From contig NZ_CP024955.1 in assembly GCF_002804065.1 (NCBI RefSeq), positions 2,108,001 to 2,172,000 on the forward strand: DNA of 64,000 nucleotides. The letters are read 5' to 3'. Numbering within the stretch: position 1 is the first letter of the stretch; each line of letters begins with the position of its first letter. The notes beneath the pieces were generated by a model. It worked only from the letters and a program-made list of their open reading frames with translations, had not been told where the DNA came from and searched no databases. Position numbers and translations under genes: made by a program. Shown piece by piece: positions 8,399 to 38,302 of the stretch. This DNA is from Kyrpidia spormannii. Its GTDB lineage: Bacteria > Bacillota > Bacilli > Kyrpidiales > Kyrpidiaceae.

Positions 8399-8899
8399 CT
8401 ATGGGCGGGGAGCCGTCCCGGTCTCCGCCCCCCGGGCTGCGGCACCGATGACCTTCGCCGCCCGAAGAAGGATCAGCAGACCGGCCGCCACATCCGGATC
8501 CCGAATCGCCCGGAACAGATCCATCATCCCCGGCGGCCGGTGCTCCCATTCCCGGGCCCCGGCGGGCTGACGCAACCCCTCTGCAACGATCTTGGCCGTT
8601 TCCGCCGCTCCTTGCAAGTCCACCGACGCCAATACCTCTCCTAAAGCCACCGCATTTTTTAACAACCGCTTTCCGCCTTGGGTGTTCACCTGATGGACCA
8701 GGATCTCCAGGACCTCTTCCCCAGATGCCGCCACATCCCGCAAAGTGCGCAGGATCCCTTTTTCACGCAACACGGCCAGTAGCTCCAAGGTCTCCTCCAA
8801 CGCCGGCGCGTATTTGGCCGCCATCTCCTGCCATCCCGGAGCGGCCGGTTGCTCCCCGCCCCCGACAGACCGTTTCACCATGCGGATCGGCTCAGCCAC
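8399..8899 (-). CDS. DUF1641 protein, formate dehydrogenase-associated (YrhD/YjgD-like)
   Basis: About 166 residues, mostly helical (ALEETLELLAVLREKGILRTLRD, ILVHQVNTQGGKRLLKNAVALGEVL, LFRAIRDPDVAAGLLILLRAAKVIG). DUF1641 proteins follow fdhF-like genes in many Bacillus and may be accessory subunits; the function is unproven. GTG at 8899 follows GGGGGAGGGCGGAC and overlaps the fdhF stop by 8 nt, indicating coupling. The open frame continues 29 codons upstream inside fdhF, which is judged spurious. Confidence 0.82.
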   Translation of the reverse strand: MAEPIRMVKRSVGGGEQPAAPGWQEMAAKYAPALEETLELLAVLREKGILRTLRDVAASGEEVLEILVHQVNTQGGKRLLKNAVALGEVLASVDLQGAAETAKIVAEGLRQPAGAREWEHRPPGMMDLFRAIRDPDVAAGLLILLRAAKVIGAAARGAETGTAPRP

Positions 8900-11867
8900 G
8901 TCCGCCCTCCCCCTTCCCCGGAAACACGTAATCCCGGCGCCGCCATTTTTCCTCAACTTCCACGCCGGATCTCGGCGTAGGCTCATGAAACCGCGGGTTA
9001 TGGATCGGCAGCGGCGTCGGACCCGATTTTTCCAAAATTTCCATCCGAACCTGAATCTCTTTGTACGCCGGGGTATGAGTCACCCGGTCGGTATGGGAGC
9101 CGGTGACATAGTTCACGGCAGCTTCAGTGGCCGTATTCATGGGCAAATACAGCTCCCGACCCCTCACCCGGTCGGTCACCAGCACCCGGATCACCACCTC
9201 CCCGAAAGGAGAGATGAGTTTCACCAGTGCCCCGGACTCGATCCCCCGCTCCTCGGCCAACTCCCGGGAAATCTCCACAAAGGCCCCGGGCACTTTGTAC
9301 CGCAGTCCCTCGGTGCGGTAGGTCATGTTTCCTTCGTGAAAATGTTCAAGGAGCCTTCCGTTGTTCAAGTGAAGGTCGTATTCCTCCGGCATTGTCACAG
9401 GCGGTACCCACTCCATCGGATAGAGCCTCGCCTGCCCGTCCGGGAAAGCAAACCTTTCTGCATACAGCAGCGGTGAATCGGTGCCGTCCTCGGCCACGGG
9501 CCACTGCAAGCTGCGGAATCCCTCCAGCCGGTCGTACCGCACCCCGGCAAAGAGAGGCGCCAACCTCGCCGCCTCGGCCATGATCTCCCCCGGGTGCTCG
9601 TACCGCCAATTCGCTCCCAGTCGATTCGCCACCGCCTGGATGATCTCCCAGTCCGGTTTGGATTCGCCGAGGGGTTCCAACGCCCGGTACAGTCGCTGAA
9701 TGCGCCGCTCGGTGTTGGTGAAAGTGCCTTCTTTCTCCAAACTCGGGGCGGCCGGCAGTACCACGTCCGCAAACTCTGCCGTGCGCGAAAGAAACATATC
9801 CTGGACCACCATGAAGTCCAACTTCGCAAACGCCGCTTGGACATAATGGGCATTGGCGTCCACCAAACTCATATCTTCGCCAATAATGTACATCGCCCGG
9901 AGATCTCCGGCGTGGATCGCATCCACCATCTCGTGATTATCCAGGCCCGGCTTCTCCGGCAGCTTGACGCCCCAGGCCACCTCGTAACGCTGGCGCACCG
10001 CCGGATCCTCAGCCCGCTCATAGCCGGGATAGTAGGCCGGCATGGCGCCAAAATCGCTGGTTCCCTGCACGTTGTTGTGCCCCCGCAGGGGATAAGCCCC
10101 GGTGCCCGGGCGGCCGTAGTTGCCCGTAACGAGCAGGAGATTGGAAATTGCCGTACTGGTATCGCTCCCTCCGCAGTGCTGGGTGACGCCCATCGCCCAC
10201 AGGACACACACCCTTTTCGCCTCATGAACCATCTGTGCCGCCCGGGTGAGATCCGCCTCGGAGATCCCCGTCACCGCCGCCGCCCGGGTGAGGGTGAAAT
10301 CCTTGAGACTCTCCACATACTCCGGCCAGCCCTTCACCCGTTTGGCCAGAAACTCCTTATCCTCCCACCCCTGGTCGATGATGTATTTGGTCACCGCCGC
10401 CAGCCAGACAAAGTCCGTCCCCGGGGCGGGGGGCAAAAACAAGTCCGCCCGCCTGGCCATCTCGTGCCGGCGCAGATCGGCGACGATCACCTTTTGACCG
10501 CGGAGTTTCTGCGCCCGTTTGACCCGGGTCGCCAAAACCGGGTGAGATTCCGCGGTATTGGACCCGATGATGATCACCAAATCCGCGGCGGCAATGTCGG
10601 CGATCGACCCGGAGTCCCCGCCGTAGCCCACGGTGCGGAACAGCCCCTGGGTGGCAGGAGACTGACAATATCGAGAGCAGTTGTCCACATTGTTCGTCCC
10701 CACGACAGCTCGGGCCAACTTTTGCATCAGGTACGCCTCTTCGTTGGTGCATTTGGACGAAGCGATAAACCCGAGAGCATCCGGCCCGTACTTCTCCCGT
10801 ACCGCTCCAAACCCCCGAGCGACAGCCTCCAGGGCTTCCTCCCAGGAGACTTCCACAAAAACCCCATCCCGACGAAGCAGGGGCCTGGTCAGGCGGTCTG
10901 GGCTGTTGATGTGTCCCCAGCCGAACTTCCCTTTGACACAGGTAGAAATCCCATTGACTGGCGCCTCGGGAGTCGGTTCGATTTTGAGAATATGACGCCC
11001 CTTGGTCCACACTTCAAAACTGCATCCCACGCCACAATAGGTGCACACCGTTTTCGTGCGTTTGATGCCTTGACTGCGCACCGCCGCCTCGGCGTCCGAG
11101 AGGGCGAGAATCGGCCCGTATCCCGGTTCCACCTCTTTGGTGACCTCGATCATCTCCCGCAGAACGCCGGGCTTCAGCCCCGTCATCACCCCGGCCTGGC
11201 CGAGCATGGATTTTTCCATGAGCGCATTGCACGGACAAACGGTGACGCAGTGCCCGCAAGATACACAGGAGGATTGGTCGATGGGTACGCCCCCGTCCCA
11301 CACCACCCGGGGACGCTCCAGGCTCCAGTCGATAGAGAGAGTTTCGTTGACCTGGAGATTCTGGCATGCCTCGACACATCGGCCGCACAGAATGCATTGG
11401 TTGGGGTCATACCGGTAAAAGGGATTCGATGCATCCACTTCGTAAGGTTTGGGGGAAAAGGGTTCGCGCTGATGCTGTACCCCCAGTTGTTTCACCGTAT
11501 TATGCACGACACAGTTGCCGTTGTTGTTGTCGCACACCGTGCAGTACAACTCGTGGTTCACAAGGATGCGATCCATCGCTTCGAGCCGCGCCAGGCGCAC
11601 CCGTTCCGACCGGGTGTCGATCCGCATCCCCTCAGTCACCTTGACACCGCAGGAACGGACCAATTCGCCATCGATCTCCACCAGACAGGTGTCACAGGTC
11701 TGAATGGGACCCAGGCTCGGGTGATAACACACATGGGGGATCTCCTCCCCCTGCTCCAACAGAACCTCCAGCACCGTCCGGTCCAGACGACCCCGTCGCA
11801 CCTCCCCGTTCACGTGAACGACCACCCCCGAAACCTCCCGGGTGATCCCATCCGCCCGCTCTGCCAT
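8892..11867 (-). CDS. fdhF: NAD-type formate dehydrogenase catalytic subunit, Mo/W-bisMGD
   Basis: Oxidises formate to CO2 in the cytoplasm. About 991 residues. N-terminal [2Fe-2S] domain (CYHPSLGPIQTCDTCLVEIDG), a HELYCTVCDNNNGNC cluster segment like NuoG, two ferredoxin 4Fe-4S motifs (CILCGRCVEAC, CVSCGHCVTVCPC), the molybdopterin-domain 4Fe-4S loop (CTYCGVGCSF ... CVKGKFGW) and a C-terminal dinucleotide-binding domain. In the active-site segment NCSRYCQSPATQGL the metal ligand position is Cys, not selenocysteine. ATG at 11867 follows AAAGGGGGACGAGACA. DUF1641 and moeA follow in the same operon. A terminator-bearing leader precedes it. Confidence 0.94.
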   Translation of the reverse strand: MAERADGITREVSGVVVHVNGEVRRGRLDRTVLEVLLEQGEEIPHVCYHPSLGPIQTCDTCLVEIDGELVRSCGVKVTEGMRIDTRSERVRLARLEAMDRILVNHELYCTVCDNNNGNCVVHNTVKQLGVQHQREPFSPKPYEVDASNPFYRYDPNQCILCGRCVEACQNLQVNETLSIDWSLERPRVVWDGGVPIDQSSCVSCGHCVTVCPCNALMEKSMLGQAGVMTGLKPGVLREMIEVTKEVEPGYGPILALSDAEAAVRSQGIKRTKTVCTYCGVGCSFEVWTKGRHILKIEPTPEAPVNGISTCVKGKFGWGHINSPDRLTRPLLRRDGVFVEVSWEEALEAVARGFGAVREKYGPDALGFIASSKCTNEEAYLMQKLARAVVGTNNVDNCSRYCQSPATQGLFRTVGYGGDSGSIADIAAADLVIIIGSNTAESHPVLATRVKRAQKLRGQKVIVADLRRHEMARRADLFLPPAPGTDFVWLAAVTKYIIDQGWEDKEFLAKRVKGWPEYVESLKDFTLTRAAAVTGISEADLTRAAQMVHEAKRVCVLWAMGVTQHCGGSDTSTAISNLLLVTGNYGRPGTGAYPLRGHNNVQGTSDFGAMPAYYPGYERAEDPAVRQRYEVAWGVKLPEKPGLDNHEMVDAIHAGDLRAMYIIGEDMSLVDANAHYVQAAFAKLDFMVVQDMFLSRTAEFADVVLPAAPSLEKEGTFTNTERRIQRLYRALEPLGESKPDWEIIQAVANRLGANWRYEHPGEIMAEAARLAPLFAGVRYDRLEGFRSLQWPVAEDGTDSPLLYAERFAFPDGQARLYPMEWVPPVTMPEEYDLHLNNGRLLEHFHEGNMTYRTEGLRYKVPGAFVEISRELAEERGIESGALVKLISPFGEVVIRVLVTDRVRGRELYLPMNTATEAAVNYVTGSHTDRVTHTPAYKEIQVRMEILEKSGPTPLPIHNPRFHEPTPRSGVEVEEKWRRRDYVFPGKGEGGRG

Positions 11868-11890: not shown

Positions 11891-12034
11891 CAAAAAACCA
11901 TCGCAACGATCGGCTGTCGGCCGGTACACTCCCCATGCACCTCAGCCATATTCCGATTCATCGCGATGGTTAGTCACCAGCACTCCTTCGGTACCGTGTT
12001 CCAACCGGTATACCCTTGTTTGCTGATCCAACCC
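11891..12034 (-). promoter_or_regulatory. candidate structured RNA leader with terminator, upstream of fdhF (copy A)
   Basis: The minus-strand leader contains GGTTGGAACACGGTACC, six variable nt, then GTGCTGGTGACTAACC (11968-12006). The last AACC is also the start of a terminator 5' arm (AACCATCGC, 11963-11971); the 3' arm GCGATGG is at 11898-11904, followed by a T run to 11892. The hairpin GGTT...AACC and the terminator therefore cannot coexist fully. The same element occurs in front of the OFA transporter remnant on the other strand. A weak promoter (TGGAGG, 17 nt, TATAGG) lies near 12039-12067. I do not recognise a known riboswitch class. Confidence 0.7.
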
Positions 12035-12039
12035 GTGAC

Positions 12040-12420
12040 CTATAATTCATTCATCCGGGTCCCTCCATCGATAGGCCGATCAAAAACGAATACTGAAACC
12101 ACCTCATCCTGATCGACGTCAATATCGGTGAACAATTTTACAAAATTCGCACCCACCAAAGCCTCCATGTCCACGGGACGCGTTTGTTGGTATAATTCTT
12201 TAATCATGTGCGTTCTCGCCTGCCAAATCATCATCCGTCCCTGATCGGTGCGCGCAATAAATCGCTCAACCGGGCTGAGGCTCCCGGCCATGTGGGCGAT
12301 GGCCCAGTTTCCAAAAAAGGTCACCTTGATCTTTTCCGGCCCCTTGCCGATATGGTTTTTCCGATAGGCCCGCACCAAATTCGCGAACGCTTGCTCGCGA
12401 TCCCGCCGCGACTCCTCCAT
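12040..12420 (-). CDS. DUF2294 domain protein
   Basis: A 126-residue soluble protein containing RAYRKNHIGKGPEKIKVTFFGNWAIAHMAGSLSPVERFI, the typical DUF2294 core, and a C-terminal VVSVFVFDRPI strand. Members are common near formate dehydrogenase genes in Bacillota but have no established function. ATG at 12420 follows GGGGATGAAAGG. Own promoter upstream. Read-through would enter the fdhF leader, so the leader separates its expression from that of fdhF. Confidence 0.82.
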   Translation of the reverse strand: MEESRRDREQAFANLVRAYRKNHIGKGPEKIKVTFFGNWAIAHMAGSLSPVERFIARTDQGRMMIWQARTHMIKELYQQTRPVDMEALVGANFVKLFTDIDVDQDEVVSVFVFDRPIDGGTRMNEL

Positions 12421-12550: not shown

Positions 12551-13357
12551 ATGGCGGAAAACGTCCGCTCGTATAAAGCCAAAAAAATCACTCTCGGTCA
12601 CGTCCAAGAGTTCGACGATACGGTGGCGGTGGAAACACCGCTCACTCTCTATGTGAACGACGAGGAATTCGTGACCCTGGTCTGCACCCCCGACTGTGTG
12701 GAGGAGCTTATTATCGGCTTTCTCGCCTCGGAAGGGCTAATCCGGGGCCCGGAAGACATTCAATCTCTCACCATGGACGCCTCGGACGGCATCGTGTGGG
12801 CGTCACTGCCCAGGCTGTCGACACCCGCCCGGAGGATGTTCGGAAAACGGATCCTCACCAGTTGCTGCGGCCGAGGGCGGACTTCATTTTATTTTTTCAA
12901 CGACGCCCGCACCGCCCGGAAGATCATCGGCACCTGGACCGTGTCCCCGGAAGCCTGTTTTAGAGCCATGGCTTCTTTGCAGCAGGCATCCCAGCTTTTT
13001 CACGCCACCGGAGGCATCCATCACGCGGCTTTGGCACAATCTTCCGGGGATCTCGTCGCTGTCCGCGCGGACGTCGGACGGCACAACACGCTCGACAAAC
13101 TGTACGGCTGGGCCCTCAGGGAAAAGTTTGACGCGACTCAGGTCATGGTGGTGTTCAGCGGCCGCGTCTCCTCGGAGGTGCTGTTGAAGGTCGCCAAGAT
13201 GGGCGCGCCGATCCTGCTCTCCAAATCGGCCCCGACAGACCTCGGCTTACGCCTGGCCGATGAACTCGGAGTGACGGTGGCAGGGTTTCTTCGGGGGAAT
13301 GGGATGAATGTCTACACCCACGCCGAACGAATCACCGATGAGAATGTGACCAAATGA
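12551..13357 (+). CDS. fdhD: formate dehydrogenase sulfurtransferase / accessory protein
   Basis: Passes sulfur from a cysteine desulfurase to the bis-MGD cofactor of formate dehydrogenase. 268 residues, normal length. Key signature TSCCGRG at 103-109 carries the sulfur-relay Cys pair as adjacent residues, the form usual in Gram-positives. Downstream family blocks are FHATGGIHHAAL, VRADVGRHNTLDKLYGWAL, VFSGRVSSEVLLKVAKMGAPIL and a C-terminal GFLRGNGMNVYTHAERI. ATG follows GAGGAGATCTTC. It is transcribed away from the fdhF operon and towards the OFA remnant. Confidence 0.94.
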   Translation: MAENVRSYKAKKITLGHVQEFDDTVAVETPLTLYVNDEEFVTLVCTPDCVEELIIGFLASEGLIRGPEDIQSLTMDASDGIVWASLPRLSTPARRMFGKRILTSCCGRGRTSFYFFNDARTARKIIGTWTVSPEACFRAMASLQQASQLFHATGGIHHAALAQSSGDLVAVRADVGRHNTLDKLYGWALREKFDATQVMVVFSGRVSSEVLLKVAKMGAPILLSKSAPTDLGLRLADELGVTVAGFLRGNGMNVYTHAERITDENVTK

Positions 13358-13367
13358 CGAAAACTTA

Positions 13368-13396
13368 TTGACAAAAATCAAAATCCCGATTATAAT
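13368..13396 (+). promoter_or_regulatory. consensus sigma-A promoter of the OFA-remnant leader
   Basis: TTGACA, exactly 17 nt, TATAAT: a perfect promoter starting 10 nt after the fdhD stop. Predicted transcription start is near 13403. Confidence 0.88.
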
Positions 13397-13402
13397 AATC
13401 AG

Positions 13403-13525
13403 CGTCAATGTGCAGAATGAGAAGACCGTTTAGCGGTTGGTACACGGTACCCTCGTGCTGGTGGCTAGCCGCCACAACTTCGGGATCGTTTCCCTGGATC
13501 CCGGTTGTGGCGGCTTTTCTCATTC
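13403..13525 (+). promoter_or_regulatory. candidate structured RNA leader with terminator, upstream of OFA remnant (copy B)
   Basis: Contains GGTTGGTACACGGTACC, CTC, then GTGCTGGTGGCTAGCC (13435-13470), nearly identical to the element upstream of fdhF. The terminator is strong: GCCGCCACAAC (13468-13478) pairs perfectly with GTTGTGGCGGC (13504-13514), then TTTT. The 5' arm starts inside the conserved element, so GGTGG..CCGCC can compete with it. The whole leader is bracketed by complementary GAATGAGAA (13415-13423) and TTCTCATTC (13517-13525). A ligand-binding aptamer or a protein-bound antiterminator are both possible. Confidence 0.72.
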
Positions 13526-13569
13526 ATGACGGCTTTATCCGTTTTAATCTTACAAAGGGGGAAACTGGA

Positions 13570-13997
13570 ATGAATAGTTCAAAAAATCGCTGGATCATCG
13601 CCCTGCTCAGCTCCAATTGATCGCCTTCCTGTATATGCCGTCTCTTCACCAGGCACTGTTGTTTGAAGTCCTACTTTTCGCCATCATTTCCTGCTACGGC
13701 GGCGGCTTCGCCTCGATTCCGGCCTACATCGGAGACCTGTTCGGCACCAAGCAATTGGGCGCCATACACGGGTACATTTTGACGGCCTGGTCAGCGGCGG
13801 GCATCGTCGGTCCCATGGTGGTGGCAGCGATCAAAGATGCCACGAAATCCTACGACGCCACCTTCTACGTCTTCGCCGGCCTTTTGGCTGTCGCCTTGGC
13901 CGTTTCGCTCTGGATTCGCTTGGAGATCCGGGTTTTGCGCCAGGCGAATGAGTCCCAGCCGACGCACACGAATCCTATCTCCTCGGCGGAAAACTAA
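13570..13997 (+). pseudogene. OFA-type (oxalate/formate antiporter family) MFS transporter remnant with a large internal deletion
   Basis: A good ribosome-binding site (AAAGGGGGAAACTGGA) precedes ATG at 13570, which encodes MNSSKNRWIIALLSSN then stops at 13620. From 13617, in another frame, about 126 codons match the C-terminal half-domain of OFA/YhjX-like MFS proteins (FGTKQLGAIHGYILTAWSAAGIVGPMVVAAI). A normal member is about 400-440 residues, so roughly 280 codons plus the frame are lost between the N-terminal helix start and the last membrane segments. Promoter and leader are intact. Association with fdhF and fdhD suggests the ancestor moved formate or oxalate. Confidence 0.8.
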
Positions 13998-18644: not shown

Positions 18645-18835
18645 GGGTAAGAGCCCTGCCATGCCGTGTCCCTGAGTTTTGAACCTGCCCTCGGCAGGTG
18701 GGTGACCTGCGTCACGGTTTACATGTCCACCCGAAGATGGCTTATGCGCTCCGCGCCGACCCCGGTCTCCCTTTTAAACGGTGTTGGCTCAAAACTTCAC
18801 GATAGATCACTAACACAGAAGGGCCCAAACCTACG
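18645..18835 (-). ncRNA. ssrS: 6S RNA (6S-1 / BsrA type)
   Basis: Fills most of the 400-nt gap between aspS and rarA, the position of B. subtilis bsrA. Minus strand shows the 6S plan: closing stem GGGCCCT (about 18820-18826) with AGGGCTC (18651-18657), continued by TGTGT with ACACG; internal stem GTTTTGAGCC with GGTTCAAAAC flanking a long central hairpin; total near 180 nt. A possible promoter TTGCAC, 17 nt, TACCAT lies at 18882-18910 and a terminator at 18598-18623. 6S RNA binds the housekeeping RNA polymerase holoenzyme and templates pRNA. The exact 5' end is uncertain. Confidence 0.85.
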
Positions 18836-36412: not shown

Positions 36413-38302
36413 ATCGAGTAGGAGGGGGCGGCTAGCCCCCGTCCTCTCACACCACCGGACATGCGGGTCCGCATCCGGCGGTTCACCAAGCTTGACTGAG
36501 CCTTCGGTAACGTTCGGTTAAACTCATCAGACCTTGAGCCTGCCAGTAGGTGTTGTCCAGGGCTCGATTCATCGGCCCATGGGCCATTCGCCACGGCCCT
36601 TTGCGGGCATTGGCGAATGGGTGTACCACCCACTCCGGCAACCCCAGTGCGCGCAGTTCACGGTATCGCGTCCGCACCCGTTTCCACTGTTTCCAGAGAC
36701 ACATCCGCAGCCTCCGCCGGATCCATCCTTCGATTTCTTCGAATGTGCTCGGCGTTTCGGCCAGGGCAAAGTATCCGATCCAGCCGCCCAGGTACGTATT
36801 CAGCCGTCGGATTCGTTCCTCCATGGCGATCGGTTGGTTCCTCGCCGTGAGGGCTCGGATCTTGGTCTTGACCCGGTCGATCGACTGCCTGGCCAGGCGA
36901 ATCCGGATTTCCCCGGCTTTGCGTTTGTACATGCTGAACCCCAGAAACTTGAGTTTCCACGGTCGGTCCACCGTGCTCTTCTGCTCGTTAAGCTTGAGTT
37001 TTAACCGCTCCTGCAGGAATTTCCGGATACTGGCCAGGACTCTCTCCCCCGCCCGTCTGCTTCGAACGTAGATGTTGGCATCATCCGCATACCGGACGAA
37101 CCTGTGGCCCCTCTTTTCCAGTTCTTTATCCAGGTCATCCAGAAGGATATTCGCCAACAGTGGACGGGGCGGCCCGCCCTGTGGCGTCCCTTCCTCCCTT
37201 TCCATGACCACCCCGTTCACCATGATCCCTGCCTGGAGGTATCGGCGAATGACCTTGAGTACTCGTTTATCCGTGACCTTCCGGGCGACCCGGGCCATCA
37301 GGATGTCATGATTCACCCGGTCGAAGAACTTTTCCAGGTCCATGTCCACGGCCCATTCGTATCCTTCTTCCACATACTGCCTCGCCTTCTTGACCGCGTC
37401 GTGGGCCTTTCTCCCGGGACGGAACCCGTAGCTGGCCTCCGAAAATTGCGGATCAAAGATCGGTGTCAGCACTTGCAGGAGGGCCTGTTGGATCAGGCGG
37501 TCCATCACGGTGGGGATCCCCAGCATCCGCTGGCCTCCCCCGAGTTTCGGGATTTCGACCCGGCGCACGGGCTGCGGTCGGTAGGTCCCCGCGAGCAGTT
37601 CTTCCCGGATGCGCGGCCACTCGGCTTGGATCTGTTCCCGGAGGTTTTCCGTGGGAATGCCGTCCACGCCGGGCGCGCCCTTGTTCTGCTCCACCCGCTT
37701 CAGGGCAGCCAGCATGTTACCCCTGGCCACCACCTTCTCCATCAGGCCGTCACCTTGATCTCCGCGAGGTGAGGCTCCGCTTTGTGCCGGAGAAGGGCTC
37801 GGCTCTCCCACGGTCCCCCGTGGCTTCACCACTTCCTCCCGTGGGCAGTCCCTGTTCAGGGTTTTCGGCTGTCTTCGTCCTTCTCGCGAACGCATCGGTC
37901 TCACCTCTGACTTGATGTTCGGGCCTTCCCCCTGAATTCATGACCTCCTGGGTACTATGCCCTCTGCTGACTCCTGCCGGTTCAGCCGAACCTCTCGGTT
38001 CGGGGTTGCCAGTTTTCCTGGTGTATCCGGCAGGCCTCCCCGGGTAAGAACGCTGACCTTCCCCCCGCGCCCGCCTCATATACTCCCCCGCCCCTTGGCA
38101 GCCTTGGATTTCGCTGTGTTGCGCCAGCTCATCCGAACGGTGCAGCCTCGTATGAGGTTCTTGTTCATCGGGCCGTGGGTTTGCCTCCGGCTTCCTTCGG
38201 ATTCCGCCTCGCAGCGGACACCCTTGCCTTTGGCTAGCAGACTCGTGCTGCCTCGCCTGCAGTGGACTTTCACCACCCAGTCAACGCCCATGCCGGGCGC
38301 AC
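36413..38302 (-). mobile_element. group IIC intron (bacterial class C)
   Basis: 5' end GTGCGCCCGGC at 38302 directly follows the fad-operon terminator (T run, then CTGC). 3' end at about 36413 ends in ...CTACTCGAT. Domain V is visible as GAACCGCCGGATGCGG with CCGCATGTCCGGT (about 36442-36476), followed by a domain VI hairpin (GGGGGCTAGCCGCCCCC). Length 1,890 nt with an internal reverse-transcriptase ORF lacking an endonuclease domain. Positions 37896-38302 are ribozyme domains I-III without a separate gene. Confidence 0.9.
36483..37895 (-). CDS. ltrA: group II intron reverse transcriptase/maturase (class C)
   Basis: About 470 residues. RT blocks are clear: KRVEQNKGAPGVDGIPTENL, RRVEIPKLGGGQRMLGIPTVMDRLIQQALL, SYGFRPGRKAHDAV, AVDMDLEKFFDRVNHDIL, catalytic FVRYADDANIYV, thumb and maturase domain X (LNTYLGGWIGYFALAETPSTFEEIEGWIRRRLR). 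No HNH endonuclease, as expected for class C. Odd: the nearly invariant GTPQGGPLSPLLANI block reads GTPQGGPPRPLLANI. ATG at 37895 follows AGAGGTGAGACCG. Confidence 0.92.
   Translation of the reverse strand: MRSREGRRQPKTLNRDCPREEVVKPRGTVGEPSPSPAQSGASPRGDQGDGLMEKVVARGNMLAALKRVEQNKGAPGVDGIPTENLREQIQAEWPRIREELLAGTYRPQPVRRVEIPKLGGGQRMLGIPTVMDRLIQQALLQVLTPIFDPQFSEASYGFRPGRKAHDAVKKARQYVEEGYEWAVDMDLEKFFDRVNHDILMARVARKVTDKRVLKVIRRYLQAGIMVNGVVMEREEGTPQGGPPRPLLANILLDDLDKELEKRGHRFVRYADDANIYVRSRRAGERVLASIRKFLQERLKLKLNEQKSTVDRPWKLKFLGFSMYKRKAGEIRIRLARQSIDRVKTKIRALTARNQPIAMEERIRRLNTYLGGWIGYFALAETPSTFEEIEGWIRRRLRMCLWKQWKRVRTRYRELRALGLPEWVVHPFANARKGPWRMAHGPMNRALDNTYWQAQGLMSLTERYRRLSQAW

Follow-up and report, generated by a model that had tools for sequence, protein, structure and literature searches.

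Kyrpidia spormannii carries two copies of a small hairpin element that recurs as a family of 60 copies in 50 genomes, and the leader studied here, leader B, is one of them. The window, a 64,000 nt stretch of a genome assembled as one contig of 3,352,175 bases (G000; Kyrpidia is placed in Alicyclobacillaceae, Bacilli), holds both copies. We are confident that the element is a conserved ON-type attenuator of formate genes and that copy B has been orphaned. We put at even odds the proposal that a DUF2294/MpsC-domain protein is the factor acting on it; the whole statement, that leader B is a conserved antitermination switch of formate genes in Bacilli, probably held by DUF2294, with B orphaned, is one that we favor by a little. 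The locus comprises the following features, in window coordinates.

13368 to 13396, + strand: sigma-A-type promoter of copy B, TTGACA-17-TATAAT, matching the consensus at 12 of 12 positions.
13430 to 13472, + strand: element B, hairpin P1-P3, with the core GGTTGG...CTAGCC at 13435-13470; 38.1 bits with the final family model, R3.
13468 to 13518, + strand: terminator hairpin of B, GCCGCCACAAC/GTTGTGGCGGC, followed by TTTT.
13554 to 13561, + strand: ribosome-binding site AAAGGGGG, read from the sequence.
13570 to 13620, + strand: start of an OFA/SfMCT-type MFS gene, 16 codons and then a stop, corresponding to residues 1-11 of the relative in genome G204.
13611 to 13997, + strand: what remains of the C-terminal part of this MFS gene, in another frame; it aligns to residues 300-415 of the G204 relative at 62% identity and matches MFS_1 in Pfam.
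12551 to 13357, + strand: fdhD, just upstream of promoter B (PF02634, TIGR00129).
11966 to 12011, − strand: element A (core 11968-12006), 36.8 bits with R3, of which it is also a seed; conserved in the sister genomes G001 and G002.
11892 to 11971, − strand: terminator hairpin of copy A with its T run, stem and T run being kept in three genomes.
8892 to 11867, − strand: formate dehydrogenase (FDH) catalytic subunit behind copy A (TIGR01591 Fdh-alpha, 855.8 bits against a cut-off of 666).
12040 to 12420, − strand: gene for a DUF2294/MpsC-domain protein, the candidate partner, immediately upstream of copy A (PF10057, E 1.3e-32).

The original prediction had described a perfect promoter, a structured attenuator leader, and a ribosome-binding site with 16 codons, after which an OFA-type MFS gene has lost codons and its frame. 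All of these parts were recovered. At a looser 9-of-12 threshold, a scan found one promoter site versus 0.7 expected in shuffles. The leader (13413-13530) folds at −61.9 kcal/mol with a z of −7.2, and none of 200 shuffles folded as well. The broken gene opens with ATG at 13570 and closes with TGA at 13618-13620; about 285 codons are missing. The 5′ arm of terminator B begins within the 3′ strand of P1 (13465-13470). A helix said to close the leader exists in B, with 11 pairs including G-U and a p of about 0.01 for B alone; as a family feature it was rejected, since only 4 of 38 copies reached p ≤ 0.05 in the same test.

Leaders A and B share a 46 nt blastn match at 76%, and both fit R3 equally well, although both are seeds (B served as a seed of R1, R2, and R3, so that its match in its own genome, E 3.4e-7, holds by construction). 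The proposed relation between the two leaders is real, and it goes beyond a recent duplication: what they have in common is a core found conserved across dozens of leaders. For that very reason, their likeness does not date the deletion, and the recent loss that had been deduced from it is not borne out. Copy A and its terminator stem are kept in G000, G001, and G002, with differences in the flank and terminator loop of G002, where we also observed a mismatch in P3. Upstream of element A, the PF10057 domain match ends 65 nt before the element and the stop codon of the DUF2294 gene lies 28 nt before it.

The family was assembled in stages. A script scan of 30 FDH upstream regions found a stem and then a T run in 12; L018 and L024 were added by reading, and a similar core precedes such stems in relatives. 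R2, a model of nine copies, was searched in 299 relatives and gave 22 matches with E<1e-3, comprising the nine seeds and 13 new copies; every one of them precedes a formate-related gene (FDH, 18; OFA, 2; FNT, 1; MoaA, 1). Among its 48 matches in total, 36 were taken as real, eight were dropped on inspection (G018, G068, G130, G228, G241, G266, G286, and G204 at 4224668), and four were uninspected (G056, G059, G062, and G002 contig 54). Past the first 22, acceptance as real drew on a terminator after the hairpin, a position outside genes, and context, which makes the context counts that follow circular in part. The 60 copies are the 38 that entered a terminator test, four forecast from DUF2294 clade II, and 18 accepted in a later round; four of the 50 genomes (G009, G032, G049, and G077) were recognized by eye, with R3 support for G049.

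R3 was searched over 358 genomes of the phylum, with no accepted copy outside the class of the window. Besides the window genome, that search returned nine matches in eight genomes, none of which, on reading, precedes a formate gene; eight overlap with open reading frames, and the other, L141, sits between genes, ahead of one that resembles a chromate transporter. Kyrpidia-type patterns occurred in 1 of 101 relatives, namely the source genome itself with its two sites, and in nine stretches of a wider contig collection, where a full core was recognized by eye only in G002. From the other eight stretches, L081, L085, and L086 were scored with R1 (23.1, 16.9, and 17.7 bits), and L081 was dropped after gene reading. 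The best R1 matches beyond the genus were inspected and judged to be chance; most weak ones were uninspected.

Target genes were read from translations, and one representative per gene kind was checked with Pfam/NCBIfam models. They encode FDH or FDH-like catalytic subunits, an FdhF/YdeP oxidoreductase, FdhD, MoaA, a formate/nitrite transporter, and the OFA/SfMCT transporter; formate is the simplest theme common to them. As many of them (FDH, YdeP, FdhD, and MoaA) are molybdopterin enzymes or accessories, the element could instead respond to molybdenum cofactor, molybdate, or tungstate. We consider this improbable, because the element also precedes OFA and FNT transporters and neither the Moco family of Rfam nor any other family matches it. 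With Rfam 15 (4227 families), none matched either leader in the window at its gathering score; the best subthreshold match, folP at 18.3 of 99 bits, was taken as chance. A further 18 loci, 17 with the element, yielded no match at any element up to E 1, and the Moco family had no match in the stretches scanned. Elsewhere in the window (− strand), Rfam placed the group II intron domains RF02001, RF01998, and RF00029 at 36413-38218, around a 473-aa ORF (36483-37904), and 6S RNA at 18649-18827 (93.8 bits). Separately, two genomes of family f10 (L039 and L040) carry a similar short inverted repeat, CTAAGTATGTGGGGGCATCTTAGG, upstream of FDH, which is unlike the element.

We examined covariation in the 31 copies of R3, which were aligned to R2, an alignment that leans toward the model structure. 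Cells were paired in 91.3% versus 85.2 in shuffles, double-changed cells numbered 35 versus 13.5, and the covariation score was 0.338 versus 0.227; none of 500 shuffles reached any of these values. Pairs changed on both sides (5 versus 4.0) and further pair types (14 versus 14.8) were reached by 156 and 489 of the 500 shuffles, respectively. All five measures exceeded those of slid controls, in which 22-40% were paired. By three of the five measures, the element is a covarying structure in the 5′ leaders of related genes, as is expected of a riboswitch.

The overlap between the terminator 5′ arm and an upstream basal helix that marks a transcription attenuator was also found. All 38 copies that were tested have a terminator stem of 9 bp or more with its start within the 3′ strand of P1. 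When the 160 nt downstream were base-shuffled 50 times, no shuffle equaled 37 of these stems, and the remaining stem was equaled once. Stems in the 18 later copies have 8 to 26 pairs, the terminator having been part of acceptance there. When B was folded stepwise, P1 was fully formed at lengths of 68 and 107 nt and gave way to a different fold in between; upon completion of its 3′ arm, the terminator prevailed. In the predicted nascent fold of A, CTAACC pairs with an upstream GGTTGG rather than in P1, and the terminator wins at the end; the exclusivity is less clear here than in B. Static folding makes the ON state less stable than the terminator for both B (−59.6 versus −61.9) and A (−57.8 versus −63.5). 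By default, then, the RNA would fold into the terminator and transcription would stop. Because the 3′ strand of P1 is common to the 5′ arm of the terminator, a stabilized hairpin should give read-through: P1-P3, if held together, would keep that strand from the terminator and let the polymerase read on.

The putative holder of the hairpin is a small protein with a DUF2294/MpsC domain (PF10057), whose gene adjoins many copies; it would act in the presence of formate or a related signal. PF10057 was found in 33 of 34 element genomes versus 169 of 299 relatives. Among good-quality genomes, the counts were 29/29 versus 136/263 (p 2.5e-8, phylogeny ignored; strictly 28/28 and 137/264, as G191 is 8% contaminated), and by genus 14/14 versus 56/104 (p 7e-4, phylogeny ignored). 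Within FDH-positive genomes, co-occurrence is modest (15/16 versus 15/24, p 0.03). These statistics predate the later copies; genomes such as G022 and G028 entered them as lacking the element. In 19 of the 38 copies, the domain match is found 31-217 nt upstream, and 11 others have a same-strand match no farther than 6 kb away. For eight, there was no same-strand match within 6 kb, weak domain matches being left out; one of them is copy B, with a DUF2294 gene about 1 kb away on the other strand. DUF2294 is divergently encoded beside the element in G106, G246, G028, and G180.

The linkage was also used to forecast copies. Four clade-II DUF2294 loci with no known element were examined, and all four held an unseen copy before an uninterrupted OFA frame, two of them (G024 and G257) being near-identical; three divergent-DUF2294 loci (L175-L177) held none. 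Two divergent DUF2294 clades were noted, one with L158-L160 and L166 and one with L167, L168, and L043. Copies were found in 15 of 31 PF10057-positive genomes, hand-picked partly for resembling known cases, versus 0 of 9 FDH-positive, PF10057-negative controls; in the other 16 of the 31, PF10057 is present and no element was found. Of the 23 matches in this search, 17 were taken as real, L191, L193, L195, and L196 were dropped after inspection, L118 had been dropped earlier, and L202 was uninspected. The control matches, in G036 and G084, were weak, with neither a notable terminator nor a formate gene.

The predicted structure of DUF2294 has a pLDDT of 90.8. A sequence search for solved relatives returned none, and a fold search with the model gave no clear relative (best Foldseek E 0.03); the best VIA-align hit, to FtsK motor domains at Z 7.2, falls within the range that the tool calls common. 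To our knowledge, DUF2294/MpsC is not known to bind RNA. G002 keeps element A with no PF10057 match in an 86% complete MAG; its DUF2294 gene (L042, just upstream of 4287, − strand) looks internally deleted, with start and end visible. In G073 (L043, 2768-9754), genes for DUF2294, a formamidase-like protein, OFA, fdhD, and FDH stand in one row, and no element was detected.

The main rival reading is that the hairpin itself is the sensor, a riboswitch for formate or a related small molecule in which one strand of the basal helix is also used by the terminator, and that DUF2294 is merely a gene of the regulon. Bases of the internal loop and both G-U and U-G pairs are conserved in the covarying hairpin, the target genes center on formate, and Ib-type copies persist in genomes without a recognized Ib-clade DUF2294 among the paralogs compared (G024, G257, G120, G072, G109, and G142). 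We nevertheless regard a riboswitch as unlikely. A small single hairpin would have to serve a tiny ligand, and the element is linked to one small protein gene, divergent arrangements included. RNA subtypes moreover sort with DUF2294 clades, even inside G052, which has Ia and Ib systems, although co-inheritance gives the same pattern.

The attenuator with DUF2294 as its candidate factor invites comparison with known systems. In LicT/GlcT-type RAT and HutP-type systems, a small hairpin is mutually exclusive with a terminator and the regulator gene often lies directly upstream. The element resembles them in this exclusivity and in the candidate regulator gene that is often upstream; it differs in that this neighbor is DUF2294/MpsC and the targets are formate genes. 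ANTAR antitermination follows a motif rule in which each of two hairpins has an A1..G4 hexaloop. Ten of the 16 type II leaders (a raw count, nine by pattern and one by eye) have a further hairpin upstream whose apical loop is the same, distributed by target as OFA 8/8, YdeP 2/3, FdhD 0/3, and MoaA 0/2; this hairpin is suggestive of a dimeric binder. The hexaloop rule does not hold, however, as the predicted apical loops in the copies folded have about 4 to 9 nt and rarely six. The second hairpin, with the apical loop AG-CGNNC-CU, was seen about 45-65 nt upstream of the element in type II leaders of OFA genes and in two of YdeP genes (L171-L174, L137, L127, and L136). ON-type riboswitches with terminators likewise have a covarying domain, here of about 45 nt, with a closing helix that competes with the terminator, but the element matches no Rfam class.

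Copy A precedes formate dehydrogenase; copy B once preceded a formate/monocarboxylate transporter, since broken by deletion. We use OFA as a short name for this transporter, although the G204 relative scores as SfMCT-type (L-lactate MFS transporter in NCBIfam, 462.7 bits versus a cut-off of 320), the oxalate/formate family ranking next, short of its cut-off (210.4 of 374.85), and Pfam assigning MFS_1. The window gene keeps residues 1-11 and 300-415 of the 421-aa G204 protein; against NF049980, the remnant scores 87.7 bits over positions 291-378 only, under the 320-bit whole-protein cut-off. As the original prediction had anticipated, relatives retain the full gene: in ten genomes, an apparently intact transporter gene follows the same kind of leader, as an uninterrupted frame in G204, G240, G023, G043, G024, G257, and G120 and as a blastx match of nearly full length in G022, G058, and G086. 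In the window and in G057, the element is intact and the gene that follows it is broken; G057 belongs to another family and keeps pieces 1-11, 270-303, and 385-421 in G204 numbering. In G266 (L201), a frame change near residue 54 behind an intact element may mark a further decayed copy.

Close relatives do not share the short form that the gene has in the window. G001 retains pieces at about 170-180 and 397-413, weak singly (E 0.003-0.07 in a two-protein database) yet in order at the right place, and has lost leader B together with the gene start. G002 (Kyrpidia sp. Bu79) retains pieces 81-108 and 271-290, and copy A is the sole element found there. The three Kyrpidia remnant states are mutually exclusive and none can be derived from another by loss alone; the gene therefore decayed separately in each from a fuller ancestor. 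Copy A was retained in all three genomes. The K. spormannii strain FAVT5 is described as growing on acetate, propionate, and butyrate, not formate (PMC7248562).

Leader B had also been proposed to persist as a free-standing short RNA, or sponge, after loss of its gene. Its promoter and hairpin are intact and its closing helix is long. Separate decay, with no copy of B found in either sister, speaks against a needed RNA, that helix is not a feature of the family, and full-length targets in relatives make control in cis simpler; we hold a sponge to be highly improbable. On the plain reading, copy B is an orphan whose target has decayed, a regulatory relic that would now drive at most a truncated message.

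Bacillus subtilis fdhD, yjgCD, and yrhEFG are listed under an unknown regulator (PMC2788229), and the FDH genes forCE/yrhEFG, yjgCD, and fdhD are induced together by benzoate and low pH (PMC8808070, PMC2788229). These FDH genes are related to those behind the element. Attenuators are a known kind of regulator; this family, its regulon, and the proposed partner appear to be undescribed. The open PMC literature, to which the search was confined (subscription journals lay outside it), contained no "formate riboswitch" and no description of the element, and "DUF2294" only in an unrelated mention.

A formate regulon in Bacilli is probably run by an RNA outside Rfam, which would be either the first formate riboswitch or the first target of the DUF2294/MpsC-domain proteins as a new class of antiterminators that bind RNA. 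The window provides an example of a regulatory leader that can outlive its gene. More generally, the element is a concrete, testable switch for the formate dehydrogenase genes of Bacillus-type bacteria and gives a candidate role to DUF2294/MpsC, a protein family of unknown function. It may also offer a formate-responsive genetic part, formate being a feedstock of interest for C1 biotechnology.
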